This document shows positions 1,628-9,677 of a stretch of DNA of 9,677 bases, piece after piece (within the stretch, counting starts at the first letter, position 1; the number at the start of each line of letters is the position of its first letter). Made by a program: the position numbers and the translations under genes. The notes under the pieces were generated by a model. That model made no database searches, had not been told where the DNA came from, and was given only the letters and a program-made list of their open reading frames with translations. Origin of the DNA: Candidatus Eiseniibacteriota bacterium (GTDB lineage Bacteria > Arandabacterota > Arandabacteria > JAGLYR01); assembly GCA_023132135.1 (NCBI GenBank), contig JAGLYR010000285.1:1-9677 (forward strand), given 5' to 3'.

Positions 1628-4120
1628 TCAACGCACCCAAGAGACACTCCTAAGGTCATCCACGAGCCACTCGTATGCGATCTTCGTTGCTGAATCAGGC
1701 TGAAAGACATCAAGCCCGCCCCAGTGCAGAGACAAGCTGAGCCATCCCGCTTGATCTGGGCGAAGAGCGCGCAGCCGATCCGCTGCAAACTGCACGCCGG
1801 GATCTTCGAAGCGGAAATCCTCGCGCCCAATCTCGAGATCCACAGTTGTCCTGCTTCCCGCTGGCAGGGGTTCCATGTACCAGCTGAAACCGGGGCTGCC
1901 ATCATATCCTCTTCCTCGCTTCCCGGGTCTGACTATTCCCACTAGACGCACTGGCAGTAACGCGGCTGTCCCCAACCTATGCCCGAATCCTGGAAACCAG
2001 CTCTTCACTAGCTCCTGGTAACCCTCCAGAGCCGCTGTGTAGACCGCTCTCGCTCGAGCGAGCATCTGGTCCTCGCTAAAGGGTTCCCAGATGTACCCGC
2101 CGTGAAAACCCCGATCAGGGCCTGGCCATGGAGGCCGCATCGCCTTATCGCCGTCTCCGAGGAGTTGTTCTACTCTGGCCTTAAGGGCTCGAATCAGATT
2201 CAAGCGATAAACCCGCCCGGGCACACTGGCGAGGGAAGTACCTTTTGGACTCTCAGGCAATCCCTTACGAATATCCTCTAGTGACAGTGGGCCTTGGCTC
2301 AACGATCCGCTGCCTGTGATTCGGAGGGCGATTTCCCATATAGCCTCGTCCATCAAACCGCCTCCCTCGAGAGGCAATAGACGCTTATCCAAGATCTCGG
2401 TGAGGTTGTCAGCGAGCTTGTCGAGAGACCATCGCCACGCCCATGCGGACTGATTACCAGTACTCACACCGTAGACCGTGTGCCAGTCGCGGTCGGCCGG
2501 ATCTGAGTCCCACCAACCGCCAGTGAGCTCGGTCACATCGTCTACACGATCTGCACCCTCATACCAGGCTACCGAAAGGGACTCACCCCTCGTGCTGACA
2601 ACGATGGGTCGCAGTGCGCCATCACCACACACCGGCGCGATCAGCTTGGCCAGGGGACCGATCCCCCTGATCCAAGTTGCCATTGATTCACGTATTCGGC
2701 GCCCACATTCTCGGGGCAACGGCAGCGAGACGTCTCCTCTGCTCCCACACCTATCCAACGCCTCGTCTACCACTACGGCGGCAAGAGCTGGGTCGCTTTC
2801 AACAGTGGGCGCGACTAGTTCGGACACCTGGTCATGGCTGAAACTGCCACAGGCTACGACTAGCGGATATCTCCAACAATCCGCTCGCTGAGGGCTCTCT
2901 GCAAGGTCGCTGGGTTTCGGTTCACCATCTGCCAGACTCTGTGCTCCAAACCATTCGGCGAGCATAGCCAATGGGAACGACAACGCCCCGGCCCGTTCGA
3001 CAACTAGCCCGGACCCCAGTAACTGGGCAATCTCTTCCCTAGTTCCGACTTCACAGGAGGGAACGGATCCGCCCCTTCGATCGATGGACAGAGTCGCTAG
3101 CTTCTTGAGAAGCGCATCCGCACTCGCAGTATCCACCTTTGCGCGACCGAGACAGCGCTCAACCAGCCCAGTGACGAGGTCGGCAGTTGATCCAGGCACT
3201 TGCCCCTTCTGCTCTCGCAAAAGGATGCCCAACACTACGGCGAAAAGAGGCCGCCGGATCGTCTCTTGCACTGACTTCGGCCACTGCTCAGCGTCCCATG
3301 CTTCAATCCGGCGTTGAGCAAAGCGTGCGACCAGTGCCAGCGCCTCTGGTTCAGAGAGTTTCGGAACCATGGCAGCCTCTTCCAGATTGGCCACGGTCGG
3401 AACAATCCTGCTAGTGATGATCGCAGACGTGTTGGGCCAGCTGCCCACAAGAATCCGAGCTTGACGGACCAGGTCGCCGGCCGCTCCGATTCCTGCTTCC
3501 TCAGCGCCATCGATTACCACAGTAGCGCCAAGTGCTCTGCAGTCTCCGAGTTTCCGTGTTTCTTCTTTGGCGGCATGTGCCAGGGAGGCGGATAGATCCT
3601 TCGCCTGCAAGTACACAGGTAGTGGAGCGTCTCTGCGGATTGTGGCGCGCTCTATGGCTCCCTGCAGCAGGCGCTCGGCAATGAGGGACTTGCCAGTCCC
3701 CATGTCGCCAATGAGTAGGAGGACCGGCTTATCTGGCTCAGACAGAAGTCCTGCACCTGGAGCTCCAACAAACGGATCCTCAGTAAGGGCAACCGCCTCC
3801 TCCCGTGGGACGCCAGCTGCCTGCCAGCGCTCAGCGCAGCGGGCCCTTGATGCCCGCTTAAGCTCCTCCAATGCGGCAGCACGGTTGCGTAAATGCTCTC
3901 TATGCGCTAGCAGCCTGAGAACTATGCGCAAAGCTACTAGCCCGACCAAGACGACCCATGCCCATTGAAGGTACGGCTTCAGCCAATCCGGAACCTGCCC
4001 TGCAGCAATACTACTCATCACCCCGATGGCAATCAGGATCAGGTCAGACCATAGCGCAGTCCACGTAGAAGCAGTCGCCTTCATAGCTAGTTCATCGTAC
4101 CCGCGGGGTTTGTCCTGCAC
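1628..4120 (-). CDS. Membrane-anchored NACHT/STAND-like NTPase, 830 aa
   Basis: Two hydrophobic segments at about residues 21-40 and 51-71 predict a hairpin membrane anchor, followed by a charged, probably helical linker (73-100). The NTPase core has Walker A GDMGTGKS (138-145), a Walker B-like VVIDGAEEA (201-209, D204) and an ITSR sensor segment (R238). Then come LSEPEALALVARF and an RRPLFAVVLGILL stretch of the kind that follows the core in NACHT proteins. A probable winged-helix portion ends with SFPLAMLAEWFGAQSL (381-396). The remaining 430 or so residues match nothing I recognise and show no clear TPR or LRR repeats; they could be the sensor. The GTG start at 4120 has GGGAAG about 8 bases upstream; ATG at 4084 (residue 13) is an alternative and would still keep both helices. 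It is the first gene of a minus-strand pair with the nuclease-NTPase. A defence role is inferred from architecture and context. Confidence 0.85.
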   Translation of the reverse strand: MQDKPRGYDELAMKATASTWTALWSDLILIAIGVMSSIAAGQVPDWLKPYLQWAWVVLVGLVALRIVLRLLAHREHLRNRAAALEELKRASRARCAERWQAAGVPREEAVALTEDPFVGAPGAGLLSEPDKPVLLLIGDMGTGKSLIAERLLQGAIERATIRRDAPLPVYLQAKDLSASLAHAAKEETRKLGDCRALGATVVIDGAEEAGIGAAGDLVRQARILVGSWPNTSAIITSRIVPTVANLEEAAMVPKLSEPEALALVARFAQRRIEAWDAEQWPKSVQETIRRPLFAVVLGILLREQKGQVPGSTADLVTGLVERCLGRAKVDTASADALLKKLATLSIDRRGGSVPSCEVGTREEIAQLLGSGLVVERAGALSFPLAMLAEWFGAQSLADGEPKPSDLAESPQRADCWRYPLVVACGSFSHDQVSELVAPTVESDPALAAVVVDEALDRCGSRGDVSLPLPRECGRRIRESMATWIRGIGPLAKLIAPVCGDGALRPIVVSTRGESLSVAWYEGADRVDDVTELTGGWWDSDPADRDWHTVYGVSTGNQSAWAWRWSLDKLADNLTEILDKRLLPLEGGGLMDEAIWEIALRITGSGSLSQGPLSLEDIRKGLPESPKGTSLASVPGRVYRLNLIRALKARVEQLLGDGDKAMRPPWPGPDRGFHGGYIWEPFSEDQMLARARAVYTAALEGYQELVKSWFPGFGHRLGTAALLPVRLVGIVRPGKRGRGYDGSPGFSWYMEPLPAGSRTTVDLEIGREDFRFEDPGVQFAADRLRALRPDQAGWLSLSLHWGGLDVFQPDSATKIAYEWLVDDLRSVSWVR

Positions 4121-5730: not shown

Positions 5731-5950
5731 CCGCCTCTCCCTTGGATTTACAGCCGAAATGAATACAGCCTTTTTCGCATAGTGGCACTCGAGGCACCTT
5801 GGTCTCTCGCGAGTCCTAGAGTCGAGCATCCTGACGGGATTGGCGCGACGGGCGAGGGAGCCACCAGTTGGTACGGCCGGATGTCGCAACAAGCAGCCCG
5901 GAGAGACTTCCAGATTCCGGCCAGATCCAAGCGATGCAAGGAGGATGAAG
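5731..5950. other. Intergenic region upstream of the M78-like gene
   Basis: This 220-base gap holds no gene I can support. ImmA/IrrE proteins are usually preceded by an XRE-type repressor gene, but none is found here. The frame of the M78-like gene stays open back to an ATG at 5840, but the added 37 residues are low-complexity Arg/Pro-rich sequence without an obvious ribosome binding site, so the extension is judged non-coding. I see no convincing promoter or terminator. Confidence 0.5.
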
Positions 5951-6682
5951 ATGCGAATGAGAGTCCGGCAGCTTCGTGAAGAAAAGATCGCCGCCCAAGC
6001 AAAGGACCTTCTCTCCGACTACGCTCAGTCTCGCCCTTCAACCGCGTGTCCACCGATTCCGGTAGTCCACATCCTCAGGTCGCAGTTCCACCTCGATCCG
6101 GCATACGAGGATCTCTCGCGGATTCATCGTGACGTTGGCGCGGTTGCCGCCGTCTGGTGCGGCCGCCGACAGCTTTCCATCGACCTCAGCCGGCATTCCT
6201 ACCTGGACGCGGAGCGGGAGAGCCACAGCCGACTCATCATCGCTCATGTGCTAGGACACTTGAGCCTCCACGGTGAGCACTTCTCTGCGGACCCGGACCA
6301 GTTGCCACTGTTCGGTGATGTGCCCCAGGCCCCGTGTTTCATCTGCATGCGTAGCGACATCAAACACCCACTCGAGACTCAGGCCGAGGCTTTTGCCTTG
6401 GCACTATTGATGCCCGAGCCCATGCTCCGGGATGCGTGGACGGAATGCGTCGGGCACGTGGAGCCTCGGGTCTGCGACGCAGCCGAATGGAAAGGAATCT
6501 GTCGGATAGCATCGTCTCGCGTCGACGACAGCGCCTTAGAGACGCCGGCAGAGGAGCTGATTCGGAAGCTAGCCGGCGACTTTGAGGTATCGATTCAGTC
6601 GATGGCCGGCCGGCTGAAGCAGCTACGGTTGTTCGTCCGGGCCCACCGTCCGGAACCGGCGTTGTCCACAACCCGAGTCTAG
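5951..6682 (+). CDS. ImmA/IrrE-family (M78) metallopeptidase-like protein with altered HExxH motif
   Basis: The protein (243 aa) has the M78/DUF955 layout: AHVLGHLSLH at residues 98-107 where the family has AHELGH, followed by LETQAEAFALALLMPEPML (141-159), which holds the probable third zinc ligand (E142) and the conserved FA..LLMP signature. Both zinc histidines (H99, H103) are kept, but the catalytic glutamate is Val100 (GTG, 6248-6250). Family members cleave XRE repressors or the DdrO regulator, usually to induce an element or a DNA-damage response. Loss of the glutamate predicts no proteolysis. The ATG at 5951 has GGAGG 6 bases upstream; ATG at 5945 abuts that site and is less likely. 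The usual adjacent XRE repressor gene is missing. The C-terminal part (about 195-230) resembles the region of such proteins that follows the peptidase core. Confidence 0.85.
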   Translation: MRMRVRQLREEKIAAQAKDLLSDYAQSRPSTACPPIPVVHILRSQFHLDPAYEDLSRIHRDVGAVAAVWCGRRQLSIDLSRHSYLDAERESHSRLIIAHVLGHLSLHGEHFSADPDQLPLFGDVPQAPCFICMRSDIKHPLETQAEAFALALLMPEPMLRDAWTECVGHVEPRVCDAAEWKGICRIASSRVDDSALETPAEELIRKLAGDFEVSIQSMAGRLKQLRLFVRAHRPEPALSTTRV

Positions 6683-6750: not shown

Positions 6751-6978
6751 GTGAAGAGCTATGAGACAACCGATTTCTACCTTGCCTGCTTCCTACGGTG
6801 CGTCGGGTATGAGCTCGTTGAAGTCGGTCGAGACGGGCGGCGCGCAATCTTTGTCTTTCGAGACCGTCCGAAGAGGCGAGAAGAAATCCTGGCCTTCTAC
6901 AATGCCGAGGGCACTGTGTCGCCCTTGGCTTTTGTTGGAGCGATCAGAGATCTCAAGTCCCTGATTCACAATACGTGA
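6751..6978 (+). CDS. DUF5659 domain protein
   Basis: The whole 75-residue protein matches the pattern I associate with DUF5659: an N-terminal YETTDFYLACFLRCVGYEL, a central RRAIFVFRDRP, and a C-terminal FYNAEG..SPLAFVGAIRDLK. The family is small, of unknown function, and often found in integrated elements and phage-like regions. The GTG start at 6751 has AGGGAGG 8 bases upstream. It lies 68 bases after the M78-like gene and 43 bases before the replication-initiator-like gene, so it may head that operon. No catalytic residues are evident. It could be a small accessory or regulatory protein for element replication, which is inference from position only. Confidence 0.8.
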   Translation: MKSYETTDFYLACFLRCVGYELVEVGRDGRRAIFVFRDRPKRREEILAFYNAEGTVSPLAFVGAIRDLKSLIHNT

Positions 6979-7021: not shown

Positions 7022-7861
7022 ATGACACAAGCGACAGAATCAGATCAGACTCGCGCCGAAGAGGTTTCCGCAACGGGCAGCGAGAGTATGCTCCTTCCCA
7101 TGGAGCCTTGGCGTCCGTGGTTCCGACTATCGAGTGGGATAGTCTCCACACTGACCTGGGCCAGCCTGTCATCAAGTGCGAAGGCCGTCCTGGTTGTCTT
7201 AGCTTATCACGCAAATCAAGAGCGTGTAGCGTGGCCATCAGTCAAGAAGATTCAGGGCCTTGCCGGGACTTCCAGAAGGAGCACCTACCGTGCGCTGGCG
7301 GAACTCGAGAGTCTAGAGATCCTCGAGAAGCTGACGAGAGGTAGGTGCGGTAGATCAACGCGGTATCGGCTGCTTCACCCTGAAGACGCGGAATGCCTCC
7401 ACCTGACTGGGTGCCAGGAGTGGCACCCTCAGGGTGCCAAGGCCTGCACACACAGGGTGCCACTGGTGGCACCCGAAACAGAAGTAGTTACCACAAACAA
7501 AGAACTGAAGCAGAAGCCCCGCGCCCCTGGCGCGGGGGCTCCTTCTCCACGAATGTCCCGAACTGCATCAAGACCCAACGAGAGTCAGTCGGTCAAAGAT
7601 CAGGCGCGCAGATGGGCTCAAGGTGAGAGGCGACGCCTGAAAGAGGAAGACCCAGATGCATACGACAGGCTGTGTCGGGAGTCTCTGGCGATGGTCACGG
7701 CTGGCCTGTCTCCCGCCGAGGCTGATGCGTTCAGAGGGCGGGGATCACCTGAGAAGAGCGGAATATGGTTGGGGCGAATATACACCACGCTTGAGCATCG
7801 ATTCATAGAAGAACAGACCGAGAGGGGAGATTCGCGCGATGTCGTTGATTCCGAAGGATGA
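7022..7861 (+). CDS. Winged-helix replication-initiator-like protein
   Basis: Residues about 47-118 form a winged helix-turn-helix of the HTH_36 kind: LSSSAKAVLVVLAYHAN, then WPSVKKIQGLAGTSRRSTYRALAELESLEILEKL, ending in the wing RSTRYRL. This fold is common in replication initiators of plasmids, phages and integrative elements. Residues 125-185 are a poorly structured linker encoded by repeated DNA that looks like an origin, and 190-265 form a charged helical C-terminal region. No DnaC- or DnaB-like gene lies beside it, so how a helicase would be loaded is unknown. The ATG at 7022 has AAGGTGG roughly 11 bases upstream; ATG at 7088 is an alternative that keeps the whole HTH. The 3' end overlaps the next gene by 23 bases. 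A transcription regulator is the main alternative. Confidence 0.75.
   Translation: MTQATESDQTRAEEVSATGSESMLLPMEPWRPWFRLSSGIVSTLTWASLSSSAKAVLVVLAYHANQERVAWPSVKKIQGLAGTSRRSTYRALAELESLEILEKLTRGRCGRSTRYRLLHPEDAECLHLTGCQEWHPQGAKACTHRVPLVAPETEVVTTNKELKQKPRAPGAGAPSPRMSRTASRPNESQSVKDQARRWAQGERRRLKEEDPDAYDRLCRESLAMVTAGLSPAEADAFRGRGSPEKSGIWLGRIYTTLEHRFIEEQTERGDSRDVVDSEG
7409..7474 (+). repeat. Iteron-like GGGTGCCA repeats inside the initiator gene
   Basis: Five copies of GGGTGCCA or its complement TGGCACCC lie within 66 bases: direct at 7409-7416, 7432-7439 and 7455-7462, inverted at 7421-7428 and 7467-7474. The first two and last two form inverted pairs with 4-base spacers. They encode the unstructured linker after the winged helix, where amino-acid sequence is little constrained. 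Clustering of an exact octamer suggests binding sites for the encoded initiator. Confidence 0.75.
7515..7540 (+). repeat. GC-rich hairpin inside the initiator gene
   Basis: The left arm 7515-7525 (AGCCCCGCGCC) pairs with 7529-7540 (GGCGCGGGGGCT) around a 3-base loop, with one unpaired G in the right arm; GAAG and CTTC just outside could extend it with a bulge. It has no T-run and lies mid-gene, so it is unlikely to be a terminator. It encodes an Ala/Pro/Gly-rich linker. Confidence 0.7.
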
Positions 7862-8177
7862 CATCTGGCCGTTCAGGCCGGGTGTGTTCAAGGTGTTTGT
7901 GGCGGATCCTCGCAAGTCAAAGAAGATCGCCGGCTGGAAAGGCTGTCGGAAGCACGCGACCTATGTCTTCCCTGACGGTCAGGTCGTCATCGACGTTCTT
8001 GTCCCAGCCAGGCTCTACCGGCGGGCGCGAGAGGTCATGGGGCTCCCGGCTCTGCGCAAGAGTCCGGGGCGCGTGGCCGCGGGCAGGAGGTCCGGCAAGG
8101 CAGCCGCCGCTCGAGGTGTCCTCAAGAAGGGCACGGACCGACAGAAAACGATCGATTTTCCCATGGTCGGAACGTAG
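7839..8177 (+). CDS. Small basic protein downstream of the initiator, unrecognised
   Basis: The 112-residue protein starts at an ATG with a GAGGGGAGA ribosome binding site about 8 bases upstream, and overlaps the end of the initiator gene by 23 bases, so the two are probably translated together. Residues 1-70 look folded (VFKVFVADPRKSKKIAGW, then TYVFPDGQVVIDVLVPARLY). Residues 72-112 form an Arg/Lys/Ala-rich tail likely to be disordered. The tail ends with QKTIDF (102-107), which fits the QxxLxF-type beta-clamp-binding consensus with Ile in place of Leu. I do not recognise the family. Position and tail suggest an accessory replication protein, but no enzymatic motif is visible. Confidence 0.7.
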   Translation: MSLIPKDDIWPFRPGVFKVFVADPRKSKKIAGWKGCRKHATYVFPDGQVVIDVLVPARLYRRAREVMGLPALRKSPGRVAAGRRSGKAAAARGVLKKGTDRQKTIDFPMVGT

Positions 8178-8301
8178 AAATCGCCGCTCACAGAGGCGAT
8201 CGTCAGGGGTTCGACTCTGGAGTCCCACAGATTGAGATCGTCGCTTAGAAACCGTTTTTCGGGTCCCTGACCATGTTGTCCAGTTGCCTTGGAGAAGGCC
8301 A
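8178..8301 (+). promoter_or_regulatory. Dyad-rich gap upstream of the excisionase/integrase genes
   Basis: Just after the stop at 8177, ATCGCC (8180-8185) and GGCGAT (8195-8200) form a 6-bp stem with a 9-base loop. A second dyad, GACTC-TG-GAGTC, lies at 8213-8224, and GATCGTC occurs twice (8198-8204, 8236-8242). Such symmetry suits an operator or recombination-protein sites controlling the xis-int pair. The first stem could also be a weak terminator, although no T-run follows. No clear -35/-10 was found. Confidence 0.4.
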
Positions 8302-8514
8302 GTGAATGATCAGGCCAATCTTCCCATCCTCTTGAAGCCTGAGGAGGTGGCAGACCTCCTCAGGACAAGCCGCGACGCTATATACACAATGAACCAACGT
8401 GGCCAGTTGCCGGGAGGCACTCGAATCGGACGCCGTCTTCTCTTTCGTCGAGACAATGTGCTAGAATGGCTGGAAGAAAGACGTGCGCCATCGGCTGAGG
8501 AGTTGCGGCGATGA
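8302..8514 (+). CDS. Excisionase-like HTH_17/MerR-type DNA-binding protein
   Basis: The 70-residue protein is a single winged-helix domain of the HTH_17 (excisionase/MerR-like) family: LLKPEEVADLLRTSRDAIYTMNQRGQLPGGTRIGRRLLFRRDNVLEWLEERR. Proteins of this type bind and bend DNA at attachment sites and steer the integrase towards excision. The GTG at 8302 is preferred because GGAGAAGG ends 3 bases before it, with GGAG at about 7 bases; an upstream TTG at 8284 would add six residues without a good site. The stop overlaps the integrase start in an ATGA, so the two are translationally coupled. The pairing supports recombination directionality factor over transcription regulator, but the sequence alone cannot separate them. 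Confidence 0.85.
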   Translation: MNDQANLPILLKPEEVADLLRTSRDAIYTMNQRGQLPGGTRIGRRLLFRRDNVLEWLEERRAPSAEELRR

Positions 8515-9611
8515 GCGTGAAGATCAGACCGTTTCGAGGAGGAGGCTGGGAGGTGGACATCCGCGTGCGGTTGCCCGACGGGACCTGGAAGCGGGAGCGC
8601 AGGAAGGCTCCTGTCTCCTCTAAGTCCGGAGCAATACGTTGGGGGCAGGACTGTGAGCGCGAGATTCTGCTCCATCGCCCGGCAAAACTGAGAAAGGGGG
8701 TGCCAACGCTCGCTGAATTCGCTCCGAGATTTCTGGAAGGGTACGCGCTGGCCAATCGCCAGAAGCCGAGCGGGATCGCCGGGAAGGAGACCATTCTTCG
8801 CGTGCACCTGCTCCCGCTACTTGGGACGAAGAGACTGGATGCCATCGGGAATGAGGACATCCAGAAACTGAAGGGCGCACTCGACCAGAAGGCAGCTAAG
8901 ACGGTCAACAACATCTTGTCCGTGCTCAACACCTTGCTTCGGGTCGCCGTCGAGTGGGAAATCATCGAGCGGATGCCATGCACGGTGAAACTCCTCCGTA
9001 CTTCGACCACGGAGGCAGCGTTCCATGAGTATAAAGAGTACGCTCGCCTCATCGAGGCCGCCAGGTCAGTCGATGAGAGGGCGCACCTCGCTGTACTCTT
9101 GGGTGGGGATGCCGGGCTGCGGTGCGGGGAGATCATGGCTCTGGAGTGGACCGACATCGATCTTGATAGACAGCGACTCCGGGTCGAACGCTCCGAGTGG
9201 AAAGGCCGGGTGACAGACCCCAAAGGTGGACGTTCCCGATTGGTGCCGTTGACAAGCCGTCTGGCCGAGGCTCTTCGCGCTCACCGGCATCTGCAGGGAC
9301 ACCGCGTGCTCTGCGATGAGGACGGGCAGCCGCTCTCACAGAAGGTGGTGCAGCTCCTCGTCAGGAGATCTGCTGAGCGGGCGAACCTGGCCGAGAAGGG
9401 AGTCCACATTCTCCGCCATACATTCTGCTCGCATCTGGCGATGCGCGGGGCTCCTCCCCGGGCCATCCAGGAGCTGGCCGGACACAAGAATCTGAGCACC
9501 ACGGAGAGGTACATGCACCTCAGTCCGGCCGCAATCGAGGGGGCCATCCGGCTGCTCGAACAGCCCGGATCCGGCCCAGTTTGTGGAGAGATAATGGAGA
9601 CAGGCACCTGA
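8511..9611 (+). CDS. int: Tyrosine recombinase (phage-type integrase)
   Basis: A full-length 366-residue integrase. It has an N-terminal arm-binding-like region (1-60, GGGWEVDIRVRLPDGTWKRER), a core-binding SAM-like domain (about 65-165) and a catalytic domain (about 170-350). All catalytic residues are visible: R204 in GLRCGEI, K238 in PKGGRSR, H299 and R302 in HILRH, H325 in GHKNL and the nucleophile Y334 in TERYMHLS. It should catalyse site-specific integration and excision of the element. It starts within the excisionase stop (ATGA) and ends 35 bases from the tmRNA 3' end on the other strand, the expected place for an integrase using that gene as its attachment site. Nothing suggests decay. 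The integrase is intact, so the element may still be mobile if its far end survives. Confidence 0.96.
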   Translation: MSVKIRPFRGGGWEVDIRVRLPDGTWKRERRKAPVSSKSGAIRWGQDCEREILLHRPAKLRKGVPTLAEFAPRFLEGYALANRQKPSGIAGKETILRVHLLPLLGTKRLDAIGNEDIQKLKGALDQKAAKTVNNILSVLNTLLRVAVEWEIIERMPCTVKLLRTSTTEAAFHEYKEYARLIEAARSVDERAHLAVLLGGDAGLRCGEIMALEWTDIDLDRQRLRVERSEWKGRVTDPKGGRSRLVPLTSRLAEALRAHRHLQGHRVLCDEDGQPLSQKVVQLLVRRSAERANLAEKGVHILRHTFCSHLAMRGAPPRAIQELAGHKNLSTTERYMHLSPAAIEGAIRLLEQPGSGPVCGEIMETGT

Positions 9612-9639: not shown

Positions 9640-9677
9640 AGATAGATGGTGGAGGCGGCGGGAATCGAACCCGCGTC
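9640..9677. other. Presumed attachment site (att) at the tmRNA 3' end
   Basis: Tyrosine integrases encoded beside an RNA gene usually recombine within that gene's 3' end, leaving the RNA gene intact and a direct repeat at the other element end. The integrase orientation and 35-base spacing fit this. The second copy of the core is not in the window (no other match to the T-arm sequence was seen), so the exact boundaries are unknown and the call is inferred. Confidence 0.6.
9647..9677 (-). ncRNA. ssrA: 3' end of tmRNA gene (ssrA), partial
   Basis: Read on the minus strand, the last 31 bases give a T-arm GCGGG-TTCGATT-CCCGC, preceded by GAC, followed by an acceptor 3' strand CGCCTCC, then A and a CCA end at 9647. 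This agrees with the widely conserved tRNA-like 3' end of tmRNA, which rescues stalled ribosomes by trans-translation. The rest of the gene lies beyond the right edge. A tRNA with a similar T-arm (for example a serine tRNA) cannot be excluded because the anticodon or tag region is not visible. Confidence 0.75.

Follow-up and report, generated by a model that had tools for sequence, protein, structure and literature searches.

A probable replication origin inside the initiator gene of an integrative element

We have analysed a window of 9,677 nucleotides, which comprises an entire contig (1-9677) of a draft genome of 345 contigs from an uncultured bacterium, and find that positions 7409-7516 very probably serve an integrative element as its replication origin, located inside the gene for the element's own initiator. 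This reading follows from dyad iterons situated in the DNA encoding the protein's linker and abutting the least stable tract of the gene, a layout which is repeated in relatives. The region in all likelihood works like a lambdoid origin, although the protein, to judge from its domain content, falls outside the lambda O family. The features to which the text refers are the following.

7022-7861, plus strand: initiator gene, 279 aa (Pfam HTH_36, PHROG 391, AlphaFold), with an HTH_36 winged helix at residues ~38-120, a predicted disordered linker at ~122-186 and a helical C-terminus at 187-269
7409-7428, no strand: iteron 1, perfect dyad GGGTGCCA-N4-TGGCACCC (exact octamer matches)
7432-7451, no strand: iteron 2, left half 7432-7439 exact, right half 5/8
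7455-7474, no strand: iteron 3, perfect dyad GGGTGCCA-N4-TGGCACCC (exact octamer matches)
7475-7516, plus strand: tract rich in A and in purines, proposed as a DNA unwinding element (duplex stability)
7517-7537, no strand: GC-rich perfect hairpin, 9-bp stem and 3-base loop (sequence and folding)
7839-8177: short gene, no assigned product
8284-8514, plus strand: excisionase-type HTH_17 protein (Pfam HTH_17, 4.4e-13; TIGR01764 over cut-off)
8511-9611, plus strand: tyrosine integrase (Pfam Phage_integrase, 3.8e-31; phrog_1, 3.6e-55)
9647-9677, minus strand: 3' end of a tmRNA gene, 31 bases, truncated where the contig stops (Rfam tmRNA, E 8.2e-15, model positions 344-374)

Iterons, unwinding tract and the protein that encloses them

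Five exact GGGTGCCA/TGGCACCC octamers are present within 66 bp, at 7409 (+), 7421 (-), 7432 (+), 7455 (+) and 7467 (-), as the sequence-only reading had described, and this number is far above that obtained in shuffled sequences. Three hundred shuffles of the contig produced at most 3 copies of any 8-mer per 66 bp, and the same maximum of 3 copies of any 8-mer was found when the codons of the gene 7022-7861 were shuffled 60 times. Across the whole window the octamer occurs 7 times against an expectation of 0.37, a count reached in 0/200 dinucleotide shuffles, and the inverted octamer pair is unique to 7409-7474 within the 3.4-Mb genome. Read directly from the sequence as dyads, the octamers make up three iterons of 20 bp at an exact spacing of 23 bp, the middle one being degenerate, and they are better described in this way than as single copies. 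The copies fall in reading frames 0, 0, 2, 1 and 1 and the peptides they encode differ; their occurrence in all three frames with differing peptides indicates selection on the DNA and not on the protein.

The A-rich tract at 7475-7516 directly abuts iteron 3 and contains 22 A and 31 purines per 42 bases, with an AT content of 62% compared with 42% in the gene. Among the 42-bp windows of the gene none is less stable, and the tract ranks within the top 0.02% of the contig; the gene's least stable 30-bp window also starts at 7475 (top 0.06% of the contig). An A-rich purine tract following the octamers, which had been noted from the letters, is thus borne out, as is the reality of the GC-rich hairpin, whose stem at 7517-7537 is a perfect 9 bp and not merely near-perfect; hairpins of this kind are expected 0.28 times per window of the same composition, making its presence by chance unlikely. 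It is, however, not typical of relatives, in which the longest stem after the unwinding tract averaged 4.8 as opposed to 4.6 in control windows (P 0.52), and only the window and two viral contigs, L011 and L018, stand out in this comparison. A conserved hairpin as a feature of the class was rejected on this basis.

Residues 49-101 of the initiator match Pfam HTH_36 (8.8e-10), and a match to PHROG 391 ('replication initiation O-like', 1.9e-11) covers residues 46-184. In the AlphaFold model, pLDDT is 88-97 for the greater part of the wing domain and falls under 50 at residues 122-167, a stretch predicted from this very low confidence to be disordered. The iterons, A-rich tract and hairpin encode approximately residues 130-172, and the earlier placement of these elements in the linker of a winged-helix protein therefore agrees with both the HTH_36 match and the predicted disorder. 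When compared with viral proteins using Foldseek, the winged helix lies near many phage helix-turn-helix proteins, some of them entered as replication protein O or lambda GpO N-terminal, and the same program returned no match passing 0.001 for the initiator in the PDB. No relative of the C-terminal domain was identified, and close relatives of the entire protein were not found in 98 genomes, phages, plasmids and viral contigs.

Repeats within related initiator genes

Ten other winged-helix genes, selected by the octamer itself, carry the same octamer in their linkers, and they are located on viral contigs L011, L018, L066, L105, L120, L121 and L157 and in Microbacterium, Thiohalocapsa and Chloroflexi genomes. 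A second set of relatives was picked by protein similarity to L105 or L121 and not by octamer, and consists of 8 annotated phages and 13 viral contigs, 21 in all. In-gene repeats exceeding codon shuffles occur right after the winged helix in 18/21 of these protein-chosen relatives, comprising 8/8 annotated phages (L235 being marginal) and 10/13 viral contigs. The remaining three, L254, L256 and L259, are without repeats above shuffles, and the reading frames of L256 and L259 are short (110 and 120 aa). As in the window gene, the repeats of relatives are scattered over the reading frames. Their octamers differ, including GGGTGCA, GGTGACA, CCTGCAC, TAGTGCA, AGTGAAA, GGGCACC and others, most of which contain GTG. 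The sequence-only reading had suggested checking whether homologues keep repeats at this place with different octamers, and had named homologues lacking any linker repeats as the observation that would count against it; the former is what is seen in the 18 genes, and a search for the latter did not turn it up.

The position of the unstable DNA is also repeated, as the least stable 5% of the gene falls 0-30 bp after the repeat block in 27/31 genes but in the equivalent upstream position in 12/31 (Wilcoxon P 0.0002), the window gene and lambda O included. The comparison with relatives as a whole runs through distant ones (14-25% identity), and several of them are near one another and hence not independent. 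In a P. aeruginosa phage, an HTH_36 gene of the same kind immediately precedes a Phage_lambda_P gene, tying the class to lambda-type initiation.

The iterons of most of these related winged-helix initiators were observed to have a common GTG core with variable flanks, with GGGTGCCA recurring in several very divergent lineages. Another observation concerns the A-rich tract of the phage initiators, which is filled by RAACC repeats ~11-12 bp apart, that is, one helical turn, and often shifting frame. RAACC density in the first 80 bp after the iterons is 38 per kb in comparison with 1.7 per kb elsewhere in the genes, and the phased repeat is present in 14/14 phage genes examined (L228-L232, L247, L248, L250-L253, L255, L257 and L258) and absent from the window's tract. 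These repeats, a common feature observed here and not an established definition of HTH_36 O-like initiators, might serve the unwinding element as a single-strand or phased binding motif.

As a control, the reversed octamer was searched and gave 3 viral matches versus 10 for the octamer, none of the 3 matching the seed profile. One of these, at positions 90-142 of L226, falls in repeats within a gene judged by eye to encode another helix-turn-helix protein. In-gene repeats under the reversed octamer indicate that it is not the octamer as such that defines these genes, and the L226 case suggests that such repeats are common beyond HTH_36. Most triplets of GGGTGCCA in genome contigs proved to belong to unrelated repeats lying elsewhere than in such genes, chiefly in Prevotellaceae, and a broad genome search with PHROG 391 returned mostly unrelated winged helices and was left out of the statistics. 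A literature search on the octamer found no relevant paper among those listed.

The surrounding element and other readings of the repeats

The right end of the contig has the gene order 7022-7861, 7839-8177, 8284-8514, 8511-9611 and the tmRNA end. Such an order is typical of the border of elements that have integrated at the 3' end of a gene for a small stable RNA, and the tmRNA 3' end at 9647-9677, the only copy in the genome, is the probable attachment site; neither a distal attachment copy nor the tmRNA body was found when searched for in the organism's own genome. The combination of integrase, excisionase and an attachment-type tmRNA end makes excision of the element likely, and an initiator borne on an island along with an origin of its own points to replication of the excised circle, as in phage-inducible islands and PLE, which on these gene assignments is plausible. 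No transfer genes are visible in the contig, and no primase gene and no packaging genes or sites were seen in its 9.7 kb, which hold an incomplete element. It is possible that the element is a satellite, an integrative mobilizable element or a small prophage.

To the left of the initiator lie a DUF5659 gene, an IrrE-like protease gene, a gene with no assigned product and two NTPase genes. The NTPase genes (3-1619 and 1628-4120) are on the minus strand, and the first has nSTAND-type matches and a match to LmuA (3.7e-11) over its N-terminal part; from such matches, the pair may represent anti-phage defence carried by the island. The IrrE-like metalloprotease at 5840-6682, with a CapP match of 1.1e-8, is followed by the DUF5659 gene at 6751-6978, and these two may serve in control of the island. 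Two further structures were observed on the other side of the initiator, a second strong hairpin at 8339-8363 (CTGAGGAGGT-GGCAG-ACCTCCTCAG) within the start of the excisionase gene, and a stretch between the initiator and excisionase genes at 8195-8225 (CAGGGGTTCGACTCTGGAGTCCCACA) that resembles a tRNA T-arm and 3' end and was not called by ARAGORN or Rfam.

The repeats could alternatively be sites at which the winged-helix protein regulates its own gene or forms a transcription roadblock, with no part in replication. The winged helix gives weak structural matches to the repressors MarR, PerR and CodY, and iteron binding in plasmids often serves autoregulation as well. The sites, however, lie ~390 bp inside the gene, away from the promoter, and adjoin the least stable tract in an arrangement repeated in annotated phage replication genes, and we regard this alternative as quite improbable. 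Structure in the transcript, as an attenuator or a processing site, is more improbable again: the 74-nt stretch does fold unusually well when single-stranded (z -5.1, DNA parameters), but any dyad iteron array folds well, the hairpin has no T-run after it, and relatives have in common dyads and an unstable duplex, not one RNA shape. It is scarcely credible that the repeat was kept for the protein, a low-complexity linker yielding DNA repeats by accident. While the linker is predicted to be disordered, the octamers occur in three frames and both orientations, specify differing peptides and are not reproduced by codon shuffles.

It is also conceivable, though unlikely, that 7409-7516 is the former origin of a decayed element from which replication has been lost. 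The middle iteron is half degenerate, a helicase loader (lambda P, DnaC or other) was not recognised in the contig by profile searches, and the contig ends within the tmRNA with the other border missing. Against decay, the reading frames of the initiator, excisionase and integrase are intact, two of the dyads are still perfect and the unwinding tract is clean.

On the favoured reading of the region as a functional origin, each 20-bp dyad would be bound by two winged-helix domains, and two to three dimers, placed on one face of the DNA by the 23-bp period, would form an O-some-like complex. The A-rich tract at 7475-7516 would be opened by strain or wrapping, the helical C-terminus, alone or with a loader, could recruit the replicative helicase of the host, and theta replication of the excised circle would precede its reintegration or transfer.

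Wider reading and comparison with known systems

We tentatively propose that HTH_36 initiators might constitute a widespread class, distributed over phages and non-phage integrated islands of several phyla, that regularly carries the origin in the linker of the initiator gene, with iterons varying around a GTG core and the octamer GGGTGCCA recurring in very divergent lineages; exchange of the gene would then be exchange of the origin as one unit, and islands like that in the window would replicate with it after excision. What is possibly less known is the generality for HTH_36 initiators, the recurrence of the octamer across distant lineages and the phased RAACC repeat in phage relatives. For an integrative island of a lineage that has been poorly sampled, the reading predicts a compact replicon, a single gene with its origin inside, and it provides a simple rule for finding origins in many unannotated phages and islands, namely to search the linker of HTH_36 genes for dyad repeats. 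Such a gene with its origin, being self-contained, could also be tried as a plasmid backbone for hosts without genetic tools.

An origin within lambda gene O is the textbook case of this arrangement (PMC7466680), and in lambda, as in the window, the initiator gene has dyad iterons near its middle with an A-rich unwinding tract after them (PMC7466680, PMC6022878). The window shows the traits of the lambdoid-type architecture, multiple dyad iterons in the initiator gene after the DNA-binding domain and an AT-rich unwinding tract adjoining them. Lambda O with its annotated iterons was measured identically as a yardstick. Its dyad iterons number four, are 18 bp long and lie 20-24 bp apart, in comparison with three of 20 bp spaced 23 bp in the window. 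Relative position and composition are nearly equal; the repeat block extends over 0.39-0.48 of the gene in lambda O and 0.46-0.54 in the window, and the 42 bp after the block are 71% purine in both, with 62% A in lambda O and 52% A in the window. The iteron sequences, in contrast, are unrelated. Lambda O is recognised by Phage_rep_O (PF04492, 5.7e-36), whereas the window protein has HTH_36 instead, gives no Phage_rep_O match in Pfam at E up to 1 and shows no significant similarity to lambda O in profile comparison. The lambda O C-terminal domain, which matches phrog_391 positions 133-288, is not detected in the window protein, whose match covers only positions 10-138, and no counterpart of the lambda P gene was recognised in the window. 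The description of the region as a lambda-like origin, with iterons, A/T-rich tract and palindrome in the lambda order, consequently holds for the layout of iterons followed by the tract inside an initiator gene, but does not extend to the protein's domain and C-terminus, the iteron sequence or the hairpin, which is not shared in the class.

Pseudomonas, Vibrio and rhizobial phages also provide counterparts in their HTH_36 O-like initiators, which like the window combine a winged helix, in-gene repeats and an A-rich tract, although their octamers differ from that of the window and some have a lambda O-like C-terminus and a P gene. The placement of a winged helix in the N-terminal half with in-gene repeats just downstream, characteristic of this PHROG 391 group, is found in the window gene. 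For Pseudomonas phage MD8, outside the classic lambda group, repeats inside an O-like gene have likewise been reported (PMC8508860), and the likeness drawn to the window concerns those repeats. Among integrated islands, phage-inducible islands (PICI), whose rep-ori drives a plasmid, resemble the window in having an integrase, an AlpA/Xis-type regulator and their own initiator with iterons (PMC6092414), and this PICI-type combination of integrase, AlpA/Xis-type gene and own replication initiator is present here. PLE is similarly an integrated island with an integrase and its own initiator with iterons (PMC7145576). The PICI origin, however, follows pri-rep, and that of PLE lies in non-coding DNA and is served by a RepA_N initiator, whereas the origin proposed in the window is inside the HTH_36 gene. 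The Microbacterium dauci element L130 has exactly the same octamer in the linker of its winged-helix initiator, a relative of the window's, and genes for an HTH_17 excisionase and an integrase lie close by, as in the window; this element has a weak match to a terminase large subunit, and its initiator is only distantly related to the window's. The design is a known one, of which the window provides a clear further example, and the mechanism is not new.
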